From the NCBI GenBank assembly GCA_039819165.1, contig JBCBSM010000001.1:1116001-1180000 (forward strand): a stretch of DNA of 64,000 bases, written 5' to 3'. The stretch comes from Planctomycetota bacterium. GTDB lineage: Bacteria; Planctomycetota; Phycisphaerae; Phycisphaerales; UBA1924. The translations under genes were made by a program, and so were the position numbers. Shown in pieces: positions 3,676 to 61,658 of the stretch (the stretch's first letter is position 1; the number at the start of each line of letters is the position of its first letter). The notes under the pieces are model-generated. The model made no database searches and had not been told where the DNA came from. It worked only from the letters and a program-made list of their open reading frames with translations.

Positions 3676-5010
3676 TCAGTTGCCCGTGCGGGCAAGGAAC
3701 TCGGCGTCGAGGCGGCGCCGCTCCTGCACGGCCGGATCGACGGCGACCATGCGGTCGAGGGCCGCTCGGAACCGATCGTTGCGCGGGGTGCCCATCCAGC
3801 GGAGCGTGCCATCGCTGCTGTAGAGCATCACGATGGGCCAGGGGAAGCGGCGCTGGAGGCGTCGGAGGATCTGCCGCGGCTCGGTCGAGGTCTCGTTGAG
3901 CGACGTCGCGAGCCACTCGAACTCCCGGTCGAAGGCCGTCGACTGCTCGAACTGGGTGCCCCGGAGCTGCCGTTCGATCGTGCGCTGGAAGGCCTGCTCC
4001 GCCTCGGCGACGCGCTCGGGGTTGCTGCGGTAGTCGCTGGGGTTGACGTCCAGCAGCGGCACGATCGTGCTGACGACGGCGACGTCGCGACCGTAGTCCT
4101 TCTGGAGCTGGCCCATGTAGCGGTGCAGCCCGTCGTAGCTGGCCAGTAGCGTGGGCGACCAATAGTGCACCACGATGACGCGGCCCTGGAAGTTGGGCTT
4201 CTGGCCGATCCAGTTGACGCTGCCGGCGTTCAGATCGAGCACCGGGCGATTGCGATCGCTCTGGAACCGGCCGCCCGTGTCGCTCTCGTAGTCACGCCAG
4301 CGAGCGGGCCAGTCGGCGTCGTCGTAGGCAATCGCGTCGACGCCCGCAATGGTCCAGTCGGGGATCTGGGCGATGTCGCCGCGGCTCACGCTGGCGATCC
4401 GCTGGCGATCCCGCATCCGCTGCTCGGCGGCGGACTCGAGCTTGGCCTCGACGCCCGCGGCGTCGTCGAAGCTCTCGTTGACGAGCCTCCGCGTCGCCTC
4501 CCGCAGCGCGCTGCGATCGATGTCGGCGTAGCGCAGCTGGCCCGCGCGGTCCACGAGGTAGTAGTCCGGGTCGAGGTCGACCTTGAGTGCCTCGCGGAGC
4601 TTCGAGCCCGCGTCGCGGGCGAAGGGAAACTCGATGCCGCGGCGGGCGGCGATGTCGGCGGCTCCCTCGTAGGCCTCGTCGGCGTGCACGCCGATGACGA
4701 CCAGCCCCTTGCCGCCGTGCTGCTCGGCCATCTGCTGGGCGGCCCGAGCGGCGGGGATGGACGCGCTGTGCCAGCTGGCCCAGGTGACCAGCAGCACGGG
4801 CCGGCCCTCGATGTCCTGCGGCCGCACGGGCGTGCCGACCCAGTCGGTCAGCCCCTCGAGCAGGCTGGCATCGAAGCGGCTGAGCTCCATGGCGTTGAGG
4901 GCCTCTCGGCGCTCGCCCGCGCCCTCGCGGGTGATGTCGGGCTCGGCCTGGCCGAAGGCCGTTCCGGTAGCGACGCCGAGGCAGGCGATGGTCTGCAGCA
5001 ATCCGCGCAT
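3676..5010 (-). CDS. Secreted protein with two thioredoxin-like domains lacking active-site cysteines
   Basis: A 444-residue protein with a signal peptide (MRGLLQTIACLGVATGTAFGQ). Two thioredoxin/TlpA-like units are visible: the first has LLVTWASWHSAS (about 75-90), the second VIVVHYWSPTLL (about 275-290). In redox-active relatives these places read WCxxC; here both cysteine pairs are missing, so it cannot be a normal thiol oxidoreductase. The region between contains a VDRAGQLRYADID stretch, typical of the thioredoxin-fold core after the active site. The ATG at 5010 has an AGGG upstream and starts a clear signal peptide. It heads the probable transcript with trmL. The fold call is inference from sequence pattern; the role is unknown. 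Confidence 0.7.
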   Translation of the reverse strand: MRGLLQTIACLGVATGTAFGQAEPDITREGAGERREALNAMELSRFDASLLEGLTDWVGTPVRPQDIEGRPVLLVTWASWHSASIPAARAAQQMAEQHGGKGLVVIGVHADEAYEGAADIAARRGIEFPFARDAGSKLREALKVDLDPDYYLVDRAGQLRYADIDRSALREATRRLVNESFDDAAGVEAKLESAAEQRMRDRQRIASVSRGDIAQIPDWTIAGVDAIAYDDADWPARWRDYESDTGGRFQSDRNRPVLDLNAGSVNWIGQKPNFQGRVIVVHYWSPTLLASYDGLHRYMGQLQKDYGRDVAVVSTIVPLLDVNPSDYRSNPERVAEAEQAFQRTIERQLRGTQFEQSTAFDREFEWLATSLNETSTEPRQILRRLQRRFPWPIVMLYSSDGTLRWMGTPRNDRFRAALDRMVAVDPAVQERRRLDAEFLARTGN

Positions 5011-56386: not shown

Positions 56387-57640
56387 CTAGCGACAGCCCG
56401 CCGCGAACGCGTTGCCAAACGCCAGGAAATCGAAGATCGTCAGCTCGCCGTCGCCGTCCAGATCGGCGGCGGCATCGCCCGCATCGAAGGCGGCGGAGAA
56501 ATCGGCAAAGTCCGCCGCCGACAGCGCGCCATCCCCATCAACGTCGGCCACCGACGCGCACACGAGCACGAACTCGAGCGCCTGCCCGCTCAGCCCCGGG
56601 AACGCGATGAACTTGTCCACCAGTTCGCCCGTCGCCGGATCGAACCGCACGATCGTGTCGGCTCCCGTGCTCGAGACGTAGAGCAGGCCATCGGGTCCGA
56701 AGCCCATCCCCCGCGGCGCGAGCAGGAAGCGCTCGCCCGTATCCGGATCGATGCCCGGGTCGAACACCGCAAGCAGTTCGCCGGTGTCGGGGTCGTAGGT
56801 CCGCACGGAGGTCACGGCATCGGGATCGCCGAACGGCGCCTCGCTGGATAGCACGATCTGCGTCGCGTCCGGACTCAGGATCACGTCCAGCGGGCTGAGA
56901 TCCGCGTCGATCACGGCACCCGGCGCAGGGTCGGTCGTGTTGTCGACCAGCGTCGTGATCGCGCCCGTGTCACCATCGATCCGCAGCAGCGTGCCGCCGC
57001 CCGTGCCGCCGGCGCTCGGCGCGAGGGCCCCGTTGCCGATCACCAGGTCGCCGTCGGGCAGGAACACGAATCCCCGCGGGAACTCGATGTCGGCCGCCAC
57101 GGGGTCGAACACCGGCCCGATCTGCATGCCGTCGGCCCCGTCGATCTCGATCACCGTGCCGTCGTCCCGCGACCCTATGAAGAAGTTGCCCCCGGGCCCC
57201 CACACGCCGCCGCCCGGCCCCTGGCTCGGCGGCAGGGGCGTGCCGCCCGTGCCCGCCGACGTCGTCAGCACGCTGAAGACACCCACGAATCCACCCGACG
57301 GCGTGTACTCGAACACCTCGTTCGTGCCCGTGTTCACGAAGATGTTGGCGTCCGCGTCGCCGAACGGACCCCGCATCACCACGTCCCGCGGGTCGAACAG
57401 CGTGCTGCTGTCGAAATCGGCGAACACCTCGATGAACGAGCCGTCCACGCCGCTGAAGCGCAGCACCGCGTCGTTGCCGTCGCCGAAGCCCGGACTCGAG
57501 GAAATGACGTCGAACGCCGGCACCTGACCGGGCGCCGCCATCGCGACCGTGAGCACCACGCCGCCGGCGACCGTACGCCGCCATCCCCCGACACCCCGCC
57601 GCGCTCCGACCAGATCCGATTCCACGCACTCGTTCATCAT
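56387..57640 (-). CDS. Secreted beta-propeller-like protein with dockerin-like C-terminus
   Basis: A 417-residue exported protein. After an N-terminal signal (about 1-40, GGVVLTVAMAAPG) it has repeated blade-like segments (VLRFSGVDGSFIEVF, VFEYTPSGGFVGVF, GNFFIGSRDDGTVIEI, FPRGFVFLPDGDLVIGNG, PRGMGFGPDGLLYVSS) of the NHL/streptogramin-lyase type. It ends in two dockerin-like calcium loops (VDGDGALSAADFADF, LDGDGELTIFDFLAF) and a terminal AAGCR. GGAG lies before the start; a second in-frame ATG follows directly. Confidence 0.82.
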   Translation of the reverse strand: MMNECVESDLVGARRGVGGWRRTVAGGVVLTVAMAAPGQVPAFDVISSSPGFGDGNDAVLRFSGVDGSFIEVFADFDSSTLFDPRDVVMRGPFGDADANIFVNTGTNEVFEYTPSGGFVGVFSVLTTSAGTGGTPLPPSQGPGGGVWGPGGNFFIGSRDDGTVIEIDGADGMQIGPVFDPVAADIEFPRGFVFLPDGDLVIGNGALAPSAGGTGGGTLLRIDGDTGAITTLVDNTTDPAPGAVIDADLSPLDVILSPDATQIVLSSEAPFGDPDAVTSVRTYDPDTGELLAVFDPGIDPDTGERFLLAPRGMGFGPDGLLYVSSTGADTIVRFDPATGELVDKFIAFPGLSGQALEFVLVCASVADVDGDGALSAADFADFSAAFDAGDAAADLDGDGELTIFDFLAFGNAFAAGCR

Positions 57641-57743
57641 CGTCGCTCCCGCCCCGCCGGGCACTCCTGGCCGCTGGTGCCACCCACCAACACGGAAAGC
57701 GTGCAAATCCCGGTCGCAACAGCAGTGTTCCGATGAACGCGGC

Positions 57744-57769
57744 AAAAAAAGACCGCGTGCAACACGCGG
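57744..57769 (-). terminator. Rho-independent terminator of ahcY
   Basis: On the minus strand a 7-bp perfect stem CCGCGTG/CACGCGG (57769-57763 with 57759-57753) is followed by a TCTTTTTTT tract (57752-57744), about 50 bases after the ahcY stop. It is the clearest intrinsic terminator in the window. Confidence 0.85.
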
Positions 57770-57821
57770 CCCCGATCGCGATCCGATCCCGGAGCATCGC
57801 CCGGGTCAAAGCCCCATGAGT

Positions 57822-59312
57822 CTAGTATCGGTAGTGCTCGGGCTTGTACGGCCCCTCCACCGGCACACCGATGTACTCGGCCTGCTCCTGGCTGAGCTTG
57901 GTCAGCTTGACGCCCAGCTTGTCGAGGTGCAGCCGAGCAACCATCTCGTCGAGGTGCTTGGGCAGCACGTACACCTTATTCTTGTAGTCCTCGTTGTTCT
58001 CGTGCAGCTCGATCTGCGCGATCACCTGGTTGGTGAAGCTGGCGCTCATCACGAAACTCGGGTGGCCCGTCGCGCAGCCGAGATTGAGCAGCCGGCCCTC
58101 GGCCAGCACCAGGATGCTCTTGTCCATGCTCTTGAAGTAGAACTCGTCGTACTGCGGCTTGATGTTCCGACGCTCGACGTCCGGATCCCGGGCGAGCTTC
58201 TCCATCTGGATCTCGTTGTCGAAGTGGCCGATGTTGCCCACCACCGCCTTGTCCTTCATCCGCTTCATGTGCTCGAGCGTGATGATGTCCTTGTTGCCCG
58301 TGCTCGTGATGAAGATGTCGGCCGTCTCGACGACATCCTCCATCGTCAGCACCTCGAGGCCCTCCATCGCCGCCTGCAGCGCGCAGATGGGGTCGACCTC
58401 GGTCACGATCACCCGGCAGCCCTGGCCCTTGAGGCTCTGCACGCAACCCTTGCCCACGTCGCCGTAGCCGAACACCACGGCCACCTTGCCGCTCAGCATG
58501 ACGTCCGTGGCGCGGTTCAGCCCGTCGATCAGGCTGTGCCGGCAGCCGTAGACGTTGTCGAACTTGCTCTTGGTCACGCTGTCGTTGACGTTGATCGCGG
58601 GGAACGGCAGCGTGCCGCTCTCGGCGAACTGGTACAGCCGATGCACACCCGTCGTCGTCTCCTCGCTGACGCCCTTGATGCCCGGCACCACCTTCTGGAA
58701 CCAGCCCGGCGTCTCGGCGATCGTGCTGCGGATCGTCTCGAGGATGTGCTTGTACTCCTCGGGCTCGACGCCCTCGTTGAAGTCCGGCACGCTGCCCGCA
58801 TCCTCGAACTCCTTGCCCTTGAGCAGCAGCAGCGTGGCATCGCCGCCATCATCCACGATCTGGTCCGGGCCGCTGCCGTCGGGCCACGTCAGCATCTGCC
58901 TGGTGCACCACCAATATTCGGCCAGCGACTCGCCCTTCCAGGCGAACACCGGGATGCCCTTGGGGCTCTCCGGCGTGCCGCCCGTCTCGGGGCGACCGAC
59001 CACGACCGCCGCGGCGGCGTTGTCCTGCGTGCTGAAGATGTTGCACGAGCACCACCGCACGTCGGCACCCAGCTCGGCCAGCGTCTCGATCAGCACCGCC
59101 GTCTGCACCGTCATGTGCAGGCTGCCGGCGACCTTCAGACCCGCTAGCGGCTTGCTCGTGCCGTACTTCTCCTTCAGCGCCCCGAGCCCGGGCATCTCCT
59201 GCTCGGCAAGGCGGATCTCGTTGCGGCCGCTCTCGGCCAGCGCAAGATCGGCCACCTTGTACTGCAGCTGGCCCCGCTCGGTCGTCGCGATATCCGTCGT
59301 CAGCGTCGTCAT
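57822..59312 (-). CDS. ahcY: S-adenosylhomocysteine hydrolase (adenosylhomocysteinase)
   Basis: A 496-residue enzyme that splits S-adenosylhomocysteine to adenosine and homocysteine, relieving product inhibition of methyltransferases. Motifs: [29 protein letters not shown], the NAD site [24 protein letters not shown], and C-terminal [13 protein letters not shown] with the ending KPEHYRY. Length is close to the bacterial form with the extra insert. AGGAAGGG lies before the ATG at 59312. It follows the ArsR-methyltransferase gene at 58 bases and ends in a strong terminator. Confidence 0.96.
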
Positions 59313-59370
59313 GCTGTCCCTTCCTGAGAACTGAAGTGAAATCGAGCCGCCGGGCTGCTCGCCCACGCGC

Positions 59371-60414
59371 TCACGATGTCGAATCCTGCGTGTCCTTCTC
59401 GTACCCGTCTTCACCGTTCACGCGCGAACCCTCCGACGCAGGCTTCACCGCGATCGCCGCGAACACGTCCGGCCCCTTTGCCTCCGGCGTGCTCGGCAGC
59501 GGCCGGTGCGACCGCAGCCACAGTCCGGCGTCCTCGCACCACGCCGCAAGCTGCGATCGCTCGAAGCCCGCCCACGCGTGCCCCATCTCGCGGAGCAGCT
59601 CCTCGCGCGTGTGCGCGAGCATGTCCACGAGCACCAGCCGCCCGCCCGGCCTCAGGATCCGCGCAACCTCGGCGAGCACCCGCGTCGGCTCGTCGGCATG
59701 ATGCAGCACCAGGCTCAGCACGGCCAGGTCCACCGACGCATCGCCGAGCGGCAGAGCCTCGGCCGATCCCAGCTCAAACCGCACGTTGGAGCGAGCACCG
59801 ACGCGCTCCCGCGCGGCCTCCAGCATCGCCGGCTCGCGATCGATGGCGATGACCTCGCCGCTCACCGGCGCGAGCACCGCCGCGAATGCCCCCGTGCCGC
59901 ACCCGATGTCGGCCACGACCTGCCCCTCGGGCAGCAGCGCAACCAGCGCCTCGCTGGCGTAGCGATCGCCGAACAGCTCGCGGCTGACGTCGTCCCAGCC
60001 CGCGCCGAGCCGCCCGAAGAAGGCGGCCGAGCTGGGCTTCCGCTCCGCGACGACCGCACGCAGGCGGCGGGCGTCTCCCTCGACGTCCGCCGCCCGCTCG
60101 GTCGCGGCTCGCACGCGGAGCCACAGCCCGCGGAGTTCCTCGGGCAGGTCATCGGGCACGCAGCGGTACAGCGTGGCGGTGCCCGCCGCCCGCCGCTGTA
60201 CCCAGCCGTGGTCCGCCAGGCCCTTGAGCCGGCGGCTCACCGTCGACTGCGGCATCTGCAGCACTTGGGCGATCTCGCCTACCGCGAGTTCCTCGGACTC
60301 CAGCACGCGGAGCATCCTCAGCCGCACCGAGTCGGCGATCGCCGATAACGCGCCTGCAAGGTCGCGCAGATCGGTGCTGGACTCGGATTGGTGGAGATCG
60401 TTGGCGGCTTTCAT
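59371..60414 (-). CDS. ArsR-family regulator fused to a SAM-dependent methyltransferase
   Basis: A 347-residue fusion. Residues about 15-90 form an ArsR winged helix ([42 protein letters not shown]). Residues about 135-320 form a class I methyltransferase with GCGTG (171-175), [27 protein letters not shown] and [14 protein letters not shown]. There are no obvious metal-binding cysteines in the HTH part. Fusions of this kind lie beside ahcY in many bacteria and are thought to respond to SAH or SAM. A 14-bp palindrome sits over its predicted transcription start. Confidence 0.9.
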
Positions 60415-60417
60415 CCA

Positions 60418-60459
60418 TTCATCCGGATGAAGTGTAGAAGCACGCCGCCGGAAGGCAAA
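60418..60459 (-). promoter_or_regulatory. Promoter and palindromic operator of the ArsR-methyltransferase/ahcY operon
   Basis: On the minus strand, TTTGCC/TTGCCT (around 60459-60453) is followed by 16-17 bases and TACACT (60436-60431). The perfect palindrome TTCATCCGGATGAA (60431-60418) comes next and ends 3 bases before the ATG at 60414. The palindrome covers the predicted +1, a position that would allow repression by the ArsR protein itself. Confidence 0.6.
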
Positions 60460-60476
60460 TCCGTGCGGGAGATCCG

Positions 60477-61208
60477 CTAAGGTCGCGGGTCGGGCGGCGC
60501 CGCGCCGGGCGCCAGCAGCCCCTCCTCGACCGCCTCGGCCGGAGCCTGGACGAACGTTCGGCCGGGCGTTTCGCCCAGCGAGCGGATCCGCTCGGCGATC
60601 TGCTGGTCCGAATAATCGAACCACAGCGCCATGGCGTATCTATCGAGGGCCCGCTCGTCGTCGCCCAGTTCGTGGTAGAACTCCGCCAGGGCGAACTGCG
60701 GCTCCCGGGTCTGCCCGCGGTCGATCCGAGCCGCGGACAGCAACGCCCGCTCGGCCTCATCGGGATCGTCCATGAGCTGGGCGTAGCGGCCCAGCCGCAG
60801 GTAGTCCTCGATCCGGCCTGGCTGCTGCGTCCGCTGGCGGAGCAGCGTGGTCAGCTTGTCCCACTGCCGAGATGCGAACAACGCCCCAACGTACACCTCG
60901 AGCACCTCCTCGTCCTGCGGATCGGACAGGTAGACCCGCTCCAGGAAGGGCTCGGCCTCGGCAGGGCGATCCAGGGCCAGGAGGGCCCGCCCGCGGCCGA
61001 GGTCGGCCGCCCGCGGCACGGGGTACACGACCGCGTACTCCTCCCACTCGGCGAGCGAGCGCTCGTACTCGCCCCGCTCGTAGGCGGACTCGGCGGCCTG
61101 GCGGATCTCGCCCGCCGAACGCGTGGTCTGGCAGCCCGCCGGCGCCAGCAGCCCGAGGGCAATGAGGAACGGGACGACGACGACGCGGAGGTGGTTGGTG
61201 CTGCGCAT
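60477..61208 (-). CDS. TPR-repeat lipoprotein
   Basis: A 243-residue exported protein with lipobox APAGC (Cys26). TPR-like helices follow: AAESAYERGEYERSLAEWEEY, GRALLALDRPAEAEPFLERV, YVGALFASRQWDKLTTLLRQ, LGRYAQLMDDPDEAERALLSA and LAEFYHELGDDERALDRYAMAL. TPR lipoproteins often serve in outer-membrane or envelope assembly. GATAAT lies 8 bases before the ATG. Confidence 0.82.
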   Translation of the reverse strand: MRSTNHLRVVVVPFLIALGLLAPAGCQTTRSAGEIRQAAESAYERGEYERSLAEWEEYAVVYPVPRAADLGRGRALLALDRPAEAEPFLERVYLSDPQDEEVLEVYVGALFASRQWDKLTTLLRQRTQQPGRIEDYLRLGRYAQLMDDPDEAERALLSAARIDRGQTREPQFALAEFYHELGDDERALDRYAMALWFDYSDQQIAERIRSLGETPGRTFVQAPAEAVEEGLLAPGAAPPDPRP

Positions 61209-61216
61209 ACGCTGCG

Positions 61217-61222
61217 ATTATC
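61217..61222 (-). promoter_or_regulatory. Candidate -10 element GATAAT of the TPR lipoprotein gene
   Basis: Eight bases separate GATAAT from the ATG at 61208. Confidence 0.4.
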
Positions 61223-61256
61223 GGCGCTCGACGCCGGCGAAAGCGAGCGACACCGC

Positions 61257-61658
61257 GTGAACTCGCCCCCGATCCGCCTGCCAACCGTCCTGCTGCGGCA
61301 CGACCTGCCCGACGGCACCCGCCACTTCGATTGGATGCTCGCCGCCGAGCCCGATCCCGACTCGCCTCTTGTCACCTTCCGGGTCGAGGAACGCATCGAT
61401 CGCGGCCCGCCCGCGTTCCGGGCCGAGCGGCTCGCAGACCACCGCCGCCGCTACCTGGACTACGAGGGCCCCATCTCGGGCGGCCGCGGCCGGGTCTCCC
61501 GAGTGGCCTCGGGCGAGTGCACGATCCGGGGCCTCGGAGACCATGAGATCGATCTCTTGATCTCTCTTGACCGCCTGGAGGGCCCCCTCCGGGGCATCGC
61601 GCTCGGCGACGACCGGGCCCTCTGGCGGTTCTCGCGGCCCGCGTCGCACGCCGGCTGA
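61257..61658 (+). CDS. Stand-alone LigD 3'-phosphoesterase-like domain protein
   Basis: A 133-residue protein. RHDLPDGTRHFDWMLAAE (about 13-30) and ADHRRRYLDYEGPISGGRGRVSRV (about 60-83, its core LDYEGPISGGRG) match the pattern of the phosphoesterase domain found at the N-terminus of LigD DNA repair ligases. The His and Asp residues in RHDLPDGTRHFDW correspond to metal ligands there. No ligase or primase domain or Ku gene is in the window. The GTG at 61257 is the only sensible start. Confidence 0.65.
   Translation: MNSPPIRLPTVLLRHDLPDGTRHFDWMLAAEPDPDSPLVTFRVEERIDRGPPAFRAERLADHRRRYLDYEGPISGGRGRVSRVASGECTIRGLGDHEIDLLISLDRLEGPLRGIALGDDRALWRFSRPASHAG

Follow-up and report, generated by a model that had tools for sequence, protein, structure and literature searches.

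The locus raises the question of what a perfect palindrome does directly in front of a gene that joins an ArsR-type regulator to a methyltransferase fold. The window (the whole 64,000-nucleotide stretch of planctomycetal DNA that was analysed) contains this gene, followed by ahcY, on the minus strand. The sequence-only reading, an earlier description made from the letters without database searches, had taken the palindrome for an operator and considered it likely that the methyl cycle is under feedback control. Judged by comparison among genomes, the palindrome is most likely the core of a longer conserved operator, the predicted site of a SahR-type regulator. The 347-aa protein itself is, with high probability, a SahR-type repressor that would sense S-adenosylhomocysteine (SAH) and control the SAM cycle.

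Organization of the sahR-ahcY locus

The elements of the locus are as follows.

60453..60458, minus strand: -35-like hexamer TTGCCT, matching TTGACA at 4/6 positions, 16 nt from the -10-like hexamer; weak
60431..60436, minus strand: -10-like hexamer TACACT, matching TATAAT at 4/6 positions and abutting the predicted operator; similarly placed in relatives
60410..60431, minus strand: predicted operator, the 22-bp inverted repeat TTCATCCG-GATGAA-TGGATGAA, with the start codon within its right arm
60418..60431, no strand: 14-bp palindrome TTCATCCGGATGAA, the predicted operator core
59371..60414, minus strand: sahR-like gene, 347 aa, ArsR-type winged helix and class I SAM-methyltransferase fold
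57822..59312, minus strand: ahcY, adenosylhomocysteinase, 496 aa
57749..57773, minus strand: terminator-like hairpin with a T run, located after ahcY

Along the minus strand, TTGCCT (60458-60453) is followed by 16 nt, TACACT (60436-60431), the palindrome, TGG and the ATG at 60414. The palindrome had been described as perfect over 14 bp and placed between TACACT and the ATG, and this is accurate: TTCATCCGGATGAA is exact at 60418-60431, where its first base is also the final T of TACACT. No other exact copy exists in the genome. The predicted operator, of the general form TTCATCCG-N6-CGGATGAA, lies between the -10-like hexamer and the ATG of the ArsR-HTH/methyltransferase-fold gene, and the expected +1 would sit within the palindrome. 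By itself the palindrome is weak evidence and proves nothing, because perfect 14-bp palindromes occur in the window at chance level (16, against a mean of 16.3 and a range of 10-24 in 20 first-order Markov simulations).

The two promoter hexamers together match 8/12 consensus positions, which is under the threshold of a strict scan, and such a sigma-70 scan found no promoter. At the other end, the hairpin at 57749-57773 is probably the end of the sahR-ahcY operon; terminator-like sites number four in the scanned stretch, against 0.9 expected. The gene just upstream of sahR (60477-61208, minus strand) has weak tetratricopeptide-repeat matches and, by eye, a lipoprotein signal.

The regulator protein

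The regulator has the ArsR-family winged-helix DNA-binding domain typical of SahR at about residues 27-72 (HTH_5, 34.6 bits for a cut-off of 22; HTH_20, 39.2 for a cut-off of 27), and a class I methyltransferase domain at about residues 160-275 (Methyltransf_11, 94.3 bits). Both domains are found in the one open reading frame, 59371-60414, in agreement with the fusion to a SAM-dependent methyltransferase that had been read from the sequence. Equally correct was the description of the next gene as one that destroys SAH, since ahcY begins 58 nt downstream of the regulator frame.

An AlphaFold model built from 45 aligned sequences shows two domains, with a mean pLDDT of 89.8 and a pTM of 0.65. 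G171, G173 and D192 are invariant among the aligned homologues and D169 is present in 44/45; we take these four to be residues of the SAM/SAH pocket. The C-terminal SAM-methylase-type domain of a SahR is thus present, with its pocket motifs conserved, and would be able to hold SAH. Among the best 60 of 185 sequence matches in the PDB, the best-aligned stretch falls on the HTH or on the methyltransferase portion, never on both. Two-domain matches found with Foldseek are weak, the best being Rv2258c at a TM of 0.40.

Conservation of the operator

In the class, 150 genomes were searched and 74 carry the regulator. Of these, 72 loci were used, G103 and G132 being left out as their matches are cut by contig ends. 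Upstream of 65/72 homologues the repeat is matched at no fewer than 11/16 positions, compared with 128/2434 background windows, and upstream of 56/72 at no fewer than 12/16, compared with 19/2434. It is therefore the longer unit, and not the palindrome alone, that exceeds chance. Among the 65 sites over the matrix threshold, the core ATCCGGAT occurs in 54, an exact 8+8 repeat in 13 and exact 14-mer symmetry in ten. The proposal of the 14-mer as the operator therefore stands for the place, where a candidate operator does lie, while its extent has to be redrawn to the 22-bp inverted repeat; conservation in relatives likewise belongs to this repeat and not to the exact 14-mer symmetry.

In close relatives the 14-mer is mostly imperfect, and a longer repeat, CTTCATCCG-N6-CGGATGAAG, stands straight after the -10-like hexamer. 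In the window the start codon falls within the right arm; by eye, this is often so in these relatives too. Over the 65 class sites, in a best-of search run without a control, the top -10-like hexamer begins 5 or 6 bases ahead of the operator, and so abuts it, in 48; in 37 the top -35-like match stands at a distance of 17 nt. This placement of the operator on the promoter suggests repression.

The link with ahcY is also conserved, this gene lying downstream on the same strand in 62/72 class loci. Seven of the 72 lack a good operator at sahR, and five of those seven genomes (G107, G102, G084, G125 and G006) have it before ahcY instead. In the loci L019, L027, L028, L031 and L033, sahR by eye directly follows other coding sequence, without an operator of its own.

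The spacer is conserved too, with GAT at positions 9-11 of the oriented 22-mer in about 50/55 class sahR sites. The two sides of the site thus differ (ATCCGGAT and ACGGAT), and this asymmetry sets it apart from a plain dyad and is not explained by a simple dimer bound to one.

Presence of the operator follows presence of the regulator. The exact core ATCCGGATNNACGGAT was found in 47/74 class genomes with the regulator and in 6/76 without it, and its reversed control in 0/150 (Fisher p 2.5e-13, uncorrected for relatedness, the compared genomes being related to one another). The genome studied here is without the exact core, as a T replaces the C in its site. In the six regulator-less genomes the core stands before ahcY once, in G115 (79% complete), and within open frames in the remaining five. 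Within the order, the repeat occurs at one mismatch or fewer in 43/61 genomes, compared with 1/61 for the reversed control.

The predicted regulon

We trained a matrix on class sahR sites (55, without that of the window) and applied it to genes outside the training set. It scores at least 16 at metH in 40/40 order genomes with a full-length metH, against 0/556 in the background (maximum 8.7); a forty-first genome, G164 (78% complete), was left out as it has a distant match only. Sites were also found at 11/30 metK loci (background 0/327) and 3/30 metF loci (background 0/304), these loci being taken from 39 and 41 genomes with matches, respectively.

In the genome itself, the best match to the repeat is the sahR site, with one mismatch, followed by G000:C1:1538516-1538537 with two; six further places have three mismatches, compared with four places for the reversed control. 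The second-best site lies upstream of the methionine synthase gene metH. A homocysteine S-methyltransferase domain (275.9 bits) is present in the protein that starts at L002 1551; the MetH activation domain is encoded in a second, overlapping frame downstream. No operator is found upstream of the genome's own metK and metF, and metK is without a site in the four genus mates examined. A search for further copies at other methyl-cycle genes had been suggested; it succeeds for metH, here and in all 40 order genomes with a full-length metH, and fails for the genome's own metK. The two convincing sites of this genome, at sahR-ahcY and metH, make up its predicted regulon.

The methionine synthase gene is split in this genome into overlapping frames of about 630 aa (the homocysteine domain) and about 600 aa (the rest), at L385 175-3817, which corresponds to C1:1538574-1542216. 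Stop-to-stop frames of 637-679 aa suggest the same split in the four genus mates. Most other genomes of the order have metH as one frame of about 1200 aa.

At one mismatch or fewer, the order holds at least 53 sites, of which 23 lie at sahR-ahcY or ahcY, 14 at metH, eight at metK and three at metF; 48 of the 53 examined are thus at these genes and five are unassigned. At the class level, 39 further core sites outside the known sahR or metH places were examined: six at ahcY, five at metH, nine at metF and 19 elsewhere, several of the last inside open frames. The SahR core regulon (sahR, ahcY, metH, metF and metK) is hence recovered across the order and class, metK and metF in some genomes only. 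These sites lend comparative support to the feedback loop on the methyl cycle, which is very likely right as far as genome comparison can tell. Domain make-up, operator conservation, regulon membership and regulator-operator co-occurrence are direct results of computation.

Some operator-like sites lie near other genes. In G080 (L352 1998-2019; PWM 24.6), such a site is found about 230 nt before a cobalamin adenosyltransferase frame (Pfam, 200.3 bits) and, if real, would tie B12 supply to MetH. A strong one in G074 (L371 1998-2019; PWM 29.0) lies about 220 nt from a frame of a pyridoxal-phosphate enzyme family, by eye a threonine synthase. Another strong site, in G184 (L176 2001-2022; PWM 27.7), has no sahR, ahcY, metH, metK or metF match within its 4-kb stretch.

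Interleaved half-sites

Two 22-bp sites can overlap at an 8-bp shift, with ATCCGGAT common to both. A good extra left half-site is present at 16/65 sahR sites, 18/39 metH sites (39 of the 40 metH loci were used, the site of the fortieth presumably being too close to the end of its stretch), 7/11 metK sites and 4/9 sites at ahcY alone, while shifted controls average 0.3 or less with a maximum of two. A looser count gives 37/40 metH loci, a figure inflated by the shared core. The sahR site of the window has no good extra half-site (score -6.7, at the -10; random about -15), and the genome's own metH has both half-sites. Interleaving may explain why the 14-mer stands out though the operator extends beyond it.

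Comparison with SahR and SamR

The closest described system is SahR. Novichkov and colleagues are said to have found in 2014, in Desulfovibrio, that SAH releases SahR from DNA and that its sensor domain is related to methylases. Leyn et al. 2014 (PMC4239095) place SahR in the ArsR family and describe its response to SAH. By their account it occurs in alpha-, delta- and some gammaproteobacteria and has a 20-bp palindrome and a core regulon of sahR, ahcY, metH, metF and metK. According to the same paper, gammaproteobacterial SahR has the consensus ATC-10 nt-GAT in common with SamR of the Xanthomonadales, for which SAM is suggested as the effector and which has a 24-bp site and a wider methionine-synthesis regulon, with metK as its only SAM-cycle gene. 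Taxon-specific substitutions in SahR motifs are mentioned in a 2016 paper (PMC5343134). For Ensifer aridi, sahR expression is reported as highest in a sahR mutant, in line with autoregulation (PMC8877191).

The system described here shares with SahR the ArsR-type HTH, the linkage to ahcY, the targets sahR, ahcY, metH, metF and metK, and a palindromic operator of about 20 bp with ATC-N10-GAT, the consensus being taken from the published wording. A methylase-type sensor domain, which SahR reportedly also has, completes the likeness. The differences are that the present system occurs in Planctomycetota and other phyla besides Proteobacteria, that its half-site is CGGATGAA with the core ATCCGGAT, in place of the other palindromes, mostly with GATATC, of the alphaproteobacterial and Leptospira homologues examined, and that many promoters carry extra interleaved half-sites. 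With SamR, compared by description only, it shares the character of a SahR-like regulator of methionine and SAM genes and ATC-N10-GAT; SamR differs in its longer site, its broader regulon and the lack of SAM-cycle genes other than metK. As the parts, the targets and the spacing consensus are the same, we class the system as SahR, now in another phylum and with a half-site of its own. The type of switch is known and is found here outside the group in which it was first described; the additions are the operator boundaries and the regulon. In the literature searched, mostly without subscription papers, no report of SahR outside Proteobacteria was found.

Homologues in other phyla and DNA specificity

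Eighty named relatives were assigned by eye, from their record titles, to Planctomycetota, Gemmatimonadota, Acidobacteriota, Myxococcota and others, and some of the bins may be mislabelled. The operator is found in 63/80, at sahR in 58 and only at ahcY in five, against 0/2576 in the background. The remaining 17 have no site at sahR or ahcY, and eight of them are without an ahcY match in the stretch examined.

Four alphaproteobacterial homologues and one from Leptospira, which lie beside metF, metH or ahcY, show 27-34% identity in full-length alignment. The four alphaproteobacterial ones adjoin metF, with metH further on in three, and the Leptospira homologue is part of a sahR-ahcY-metH cluster. 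Upstream of the Sphingomonas homologue is the palindrome ATATAAAGATATCTTTATAT, which is near-identical in Methylobacterium and Rhizobium; the Novosphingobium homologue has a different repeat with 12-bp arms.

In Leptospira interrogans (L204, NZ_CP020413.2), sahR, ahcY, a 4Fe-4S protein gene and metH stand in a row, and a perfect 24-bp palindrome, GGATATCAAGATATCTTGATATCC, is located at 4924-4947, just before the sahR start. This is a SahR-like locus in Spirochaetota.

A midpoint-rooted tree of 46 proteins separates the alphaproteobacterial and spirochaete rows from the rest, with a support of 92/89, below the star mark of the tool. At position 58 of the recognition helix, T is present in 77/85 proteins, 58 of which have a ATCCGGAT-type site at sahR. 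The other eight have R, and 0/8 have such a site there. A joint reading, which we put forward tentatively and hold to be rather less than probable, is that the ATCCGGAT-type proteins are a SahR lineage of their own, whose specificity is set by a few recognition-helix residues, with interleaved half-sites giving a graded SAH response. Members of this lineage would occur in Planctomycetota, Gemmatimonadota, Acidobacteriota, Myxococcota and others. Some promoters, chiefly those of metH and metK, could take up two dimers; the 14-mer would be the overlap of two sites, and at the genome's own sahR-ahcY the second outer half would be taken by the -10.

Proposed mechanism and alternative explanations

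In the proposed mechanism, the ArsR-type winged helix would bind TTCATCCG-N6-CGGATGAA, from the -10 to its own start codon, and shut off sahR-ahcY, with a second bound site upstream of metH. The methyltransferase-fold domain, its SAM/SAH pocket kept, would serve as the sensor, and a rise in SAH would cause the protein to leave the DNA. AhcY would then split SAH to homocysteine, which MetH would remethylate to methionine. For this scheme we infer DNA binding by the protein, repression rather than activation, and SAH as the effector.

The choice of effector admits another answer. With the same regulator and operator, the signal could be SAM as a co-repressor, as proposed for SamR (Leyn et al., PMC4239095), or the SAM/SAH ratio. 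The pocket motifs fail to tell SAM from SAH, and metK is a target in 11/30 order genomes. Against this, the commonest partner is ahcY (62/72), the substrate of whose product is SAH; metH has the site in 40/40 genomes, but metK has none in the genome itself or in its four genus mates. Desulfovibrio SahR, moreover, responds to SAH, as cited in PMC4239095 and PMC8877191. A SAM-type signal is accordingly rated as unlikely.

In a further alternative, the inverted repeat would act in RNA, as a 5' hairpin or a riboswitch hiding the start codon, which indeed lies within the right arm in the window and, by eye, in close relatives. At gathering score, Rfam returned nothing in 57500-61500 nor in L002, L100 and L102 (the operon and the genome's own metH, metK and metF stretches), leaving these without a match to a known RNA family such as a SAM or SAH riboswitch. 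RNA starting from mid-operator folds no better than its shuffles (z 0.37). Most of the left arm, which adjoins the -10-like hexamer, would escape transcription, the asymmetric core is found in both orientations at variable distances from starts, and the operator follows the protein gene across genomes. On the Rfam result, the shuffle-level folding, the two orientations and the tracking of the regulator, the RNA element was rejected as very improbable.

Still less credible is the fusion of an ArsR-type switch for metal or arsenic to an arsenite methyltransferase, with ahcY merely clearing its SAH. The protein does share the winged-helix family of the ArsR/SmtB metal sensors, exceeds the NCBIfam HTH_metalloreg cut-off (60.5 for a cut-off of 55) and weakly matches arsenite methyltransferase models. 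The score of that match falls well short of the cut-off (72.3 for a cut-off of 263), and the protein differs from ArsR/SmtB sensors in its extra methyltransferase-fold domain, its SAM-cycle targets and its lack of metal-site cysteines. ELCVC is the type of motif that binds metal in ArsR; the corresponding stretch of the HTH here reads ELAVGEI, without a cysteine, and Cys occurs only at 85, 172 and 293. The sub-cut-off match, the absent cysteines and the assigned sites at ahcY, metH, metK and metF led to rejection of this explanation.

A chance palindrome without function, for which the chance-level density of perfect 14-mers and the exact 14-mer being kept in only 10/65 sites would speak, has a negligible probability and is rejected, as far as comparison can do so, by the conservation of the 22-bp repeat here and at other SAM-cycle genes.

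Significance

The SahR-type reading names a regulator, an operator and a set of targets through which Planctomycetota and several other phyla would control the methyl cycle. 'ArsR/methyltransferase' fusions beside ahcY become annotatable. With recognition-helix type and operator type going together, a shift in specificity inside a single family can be put to the test.
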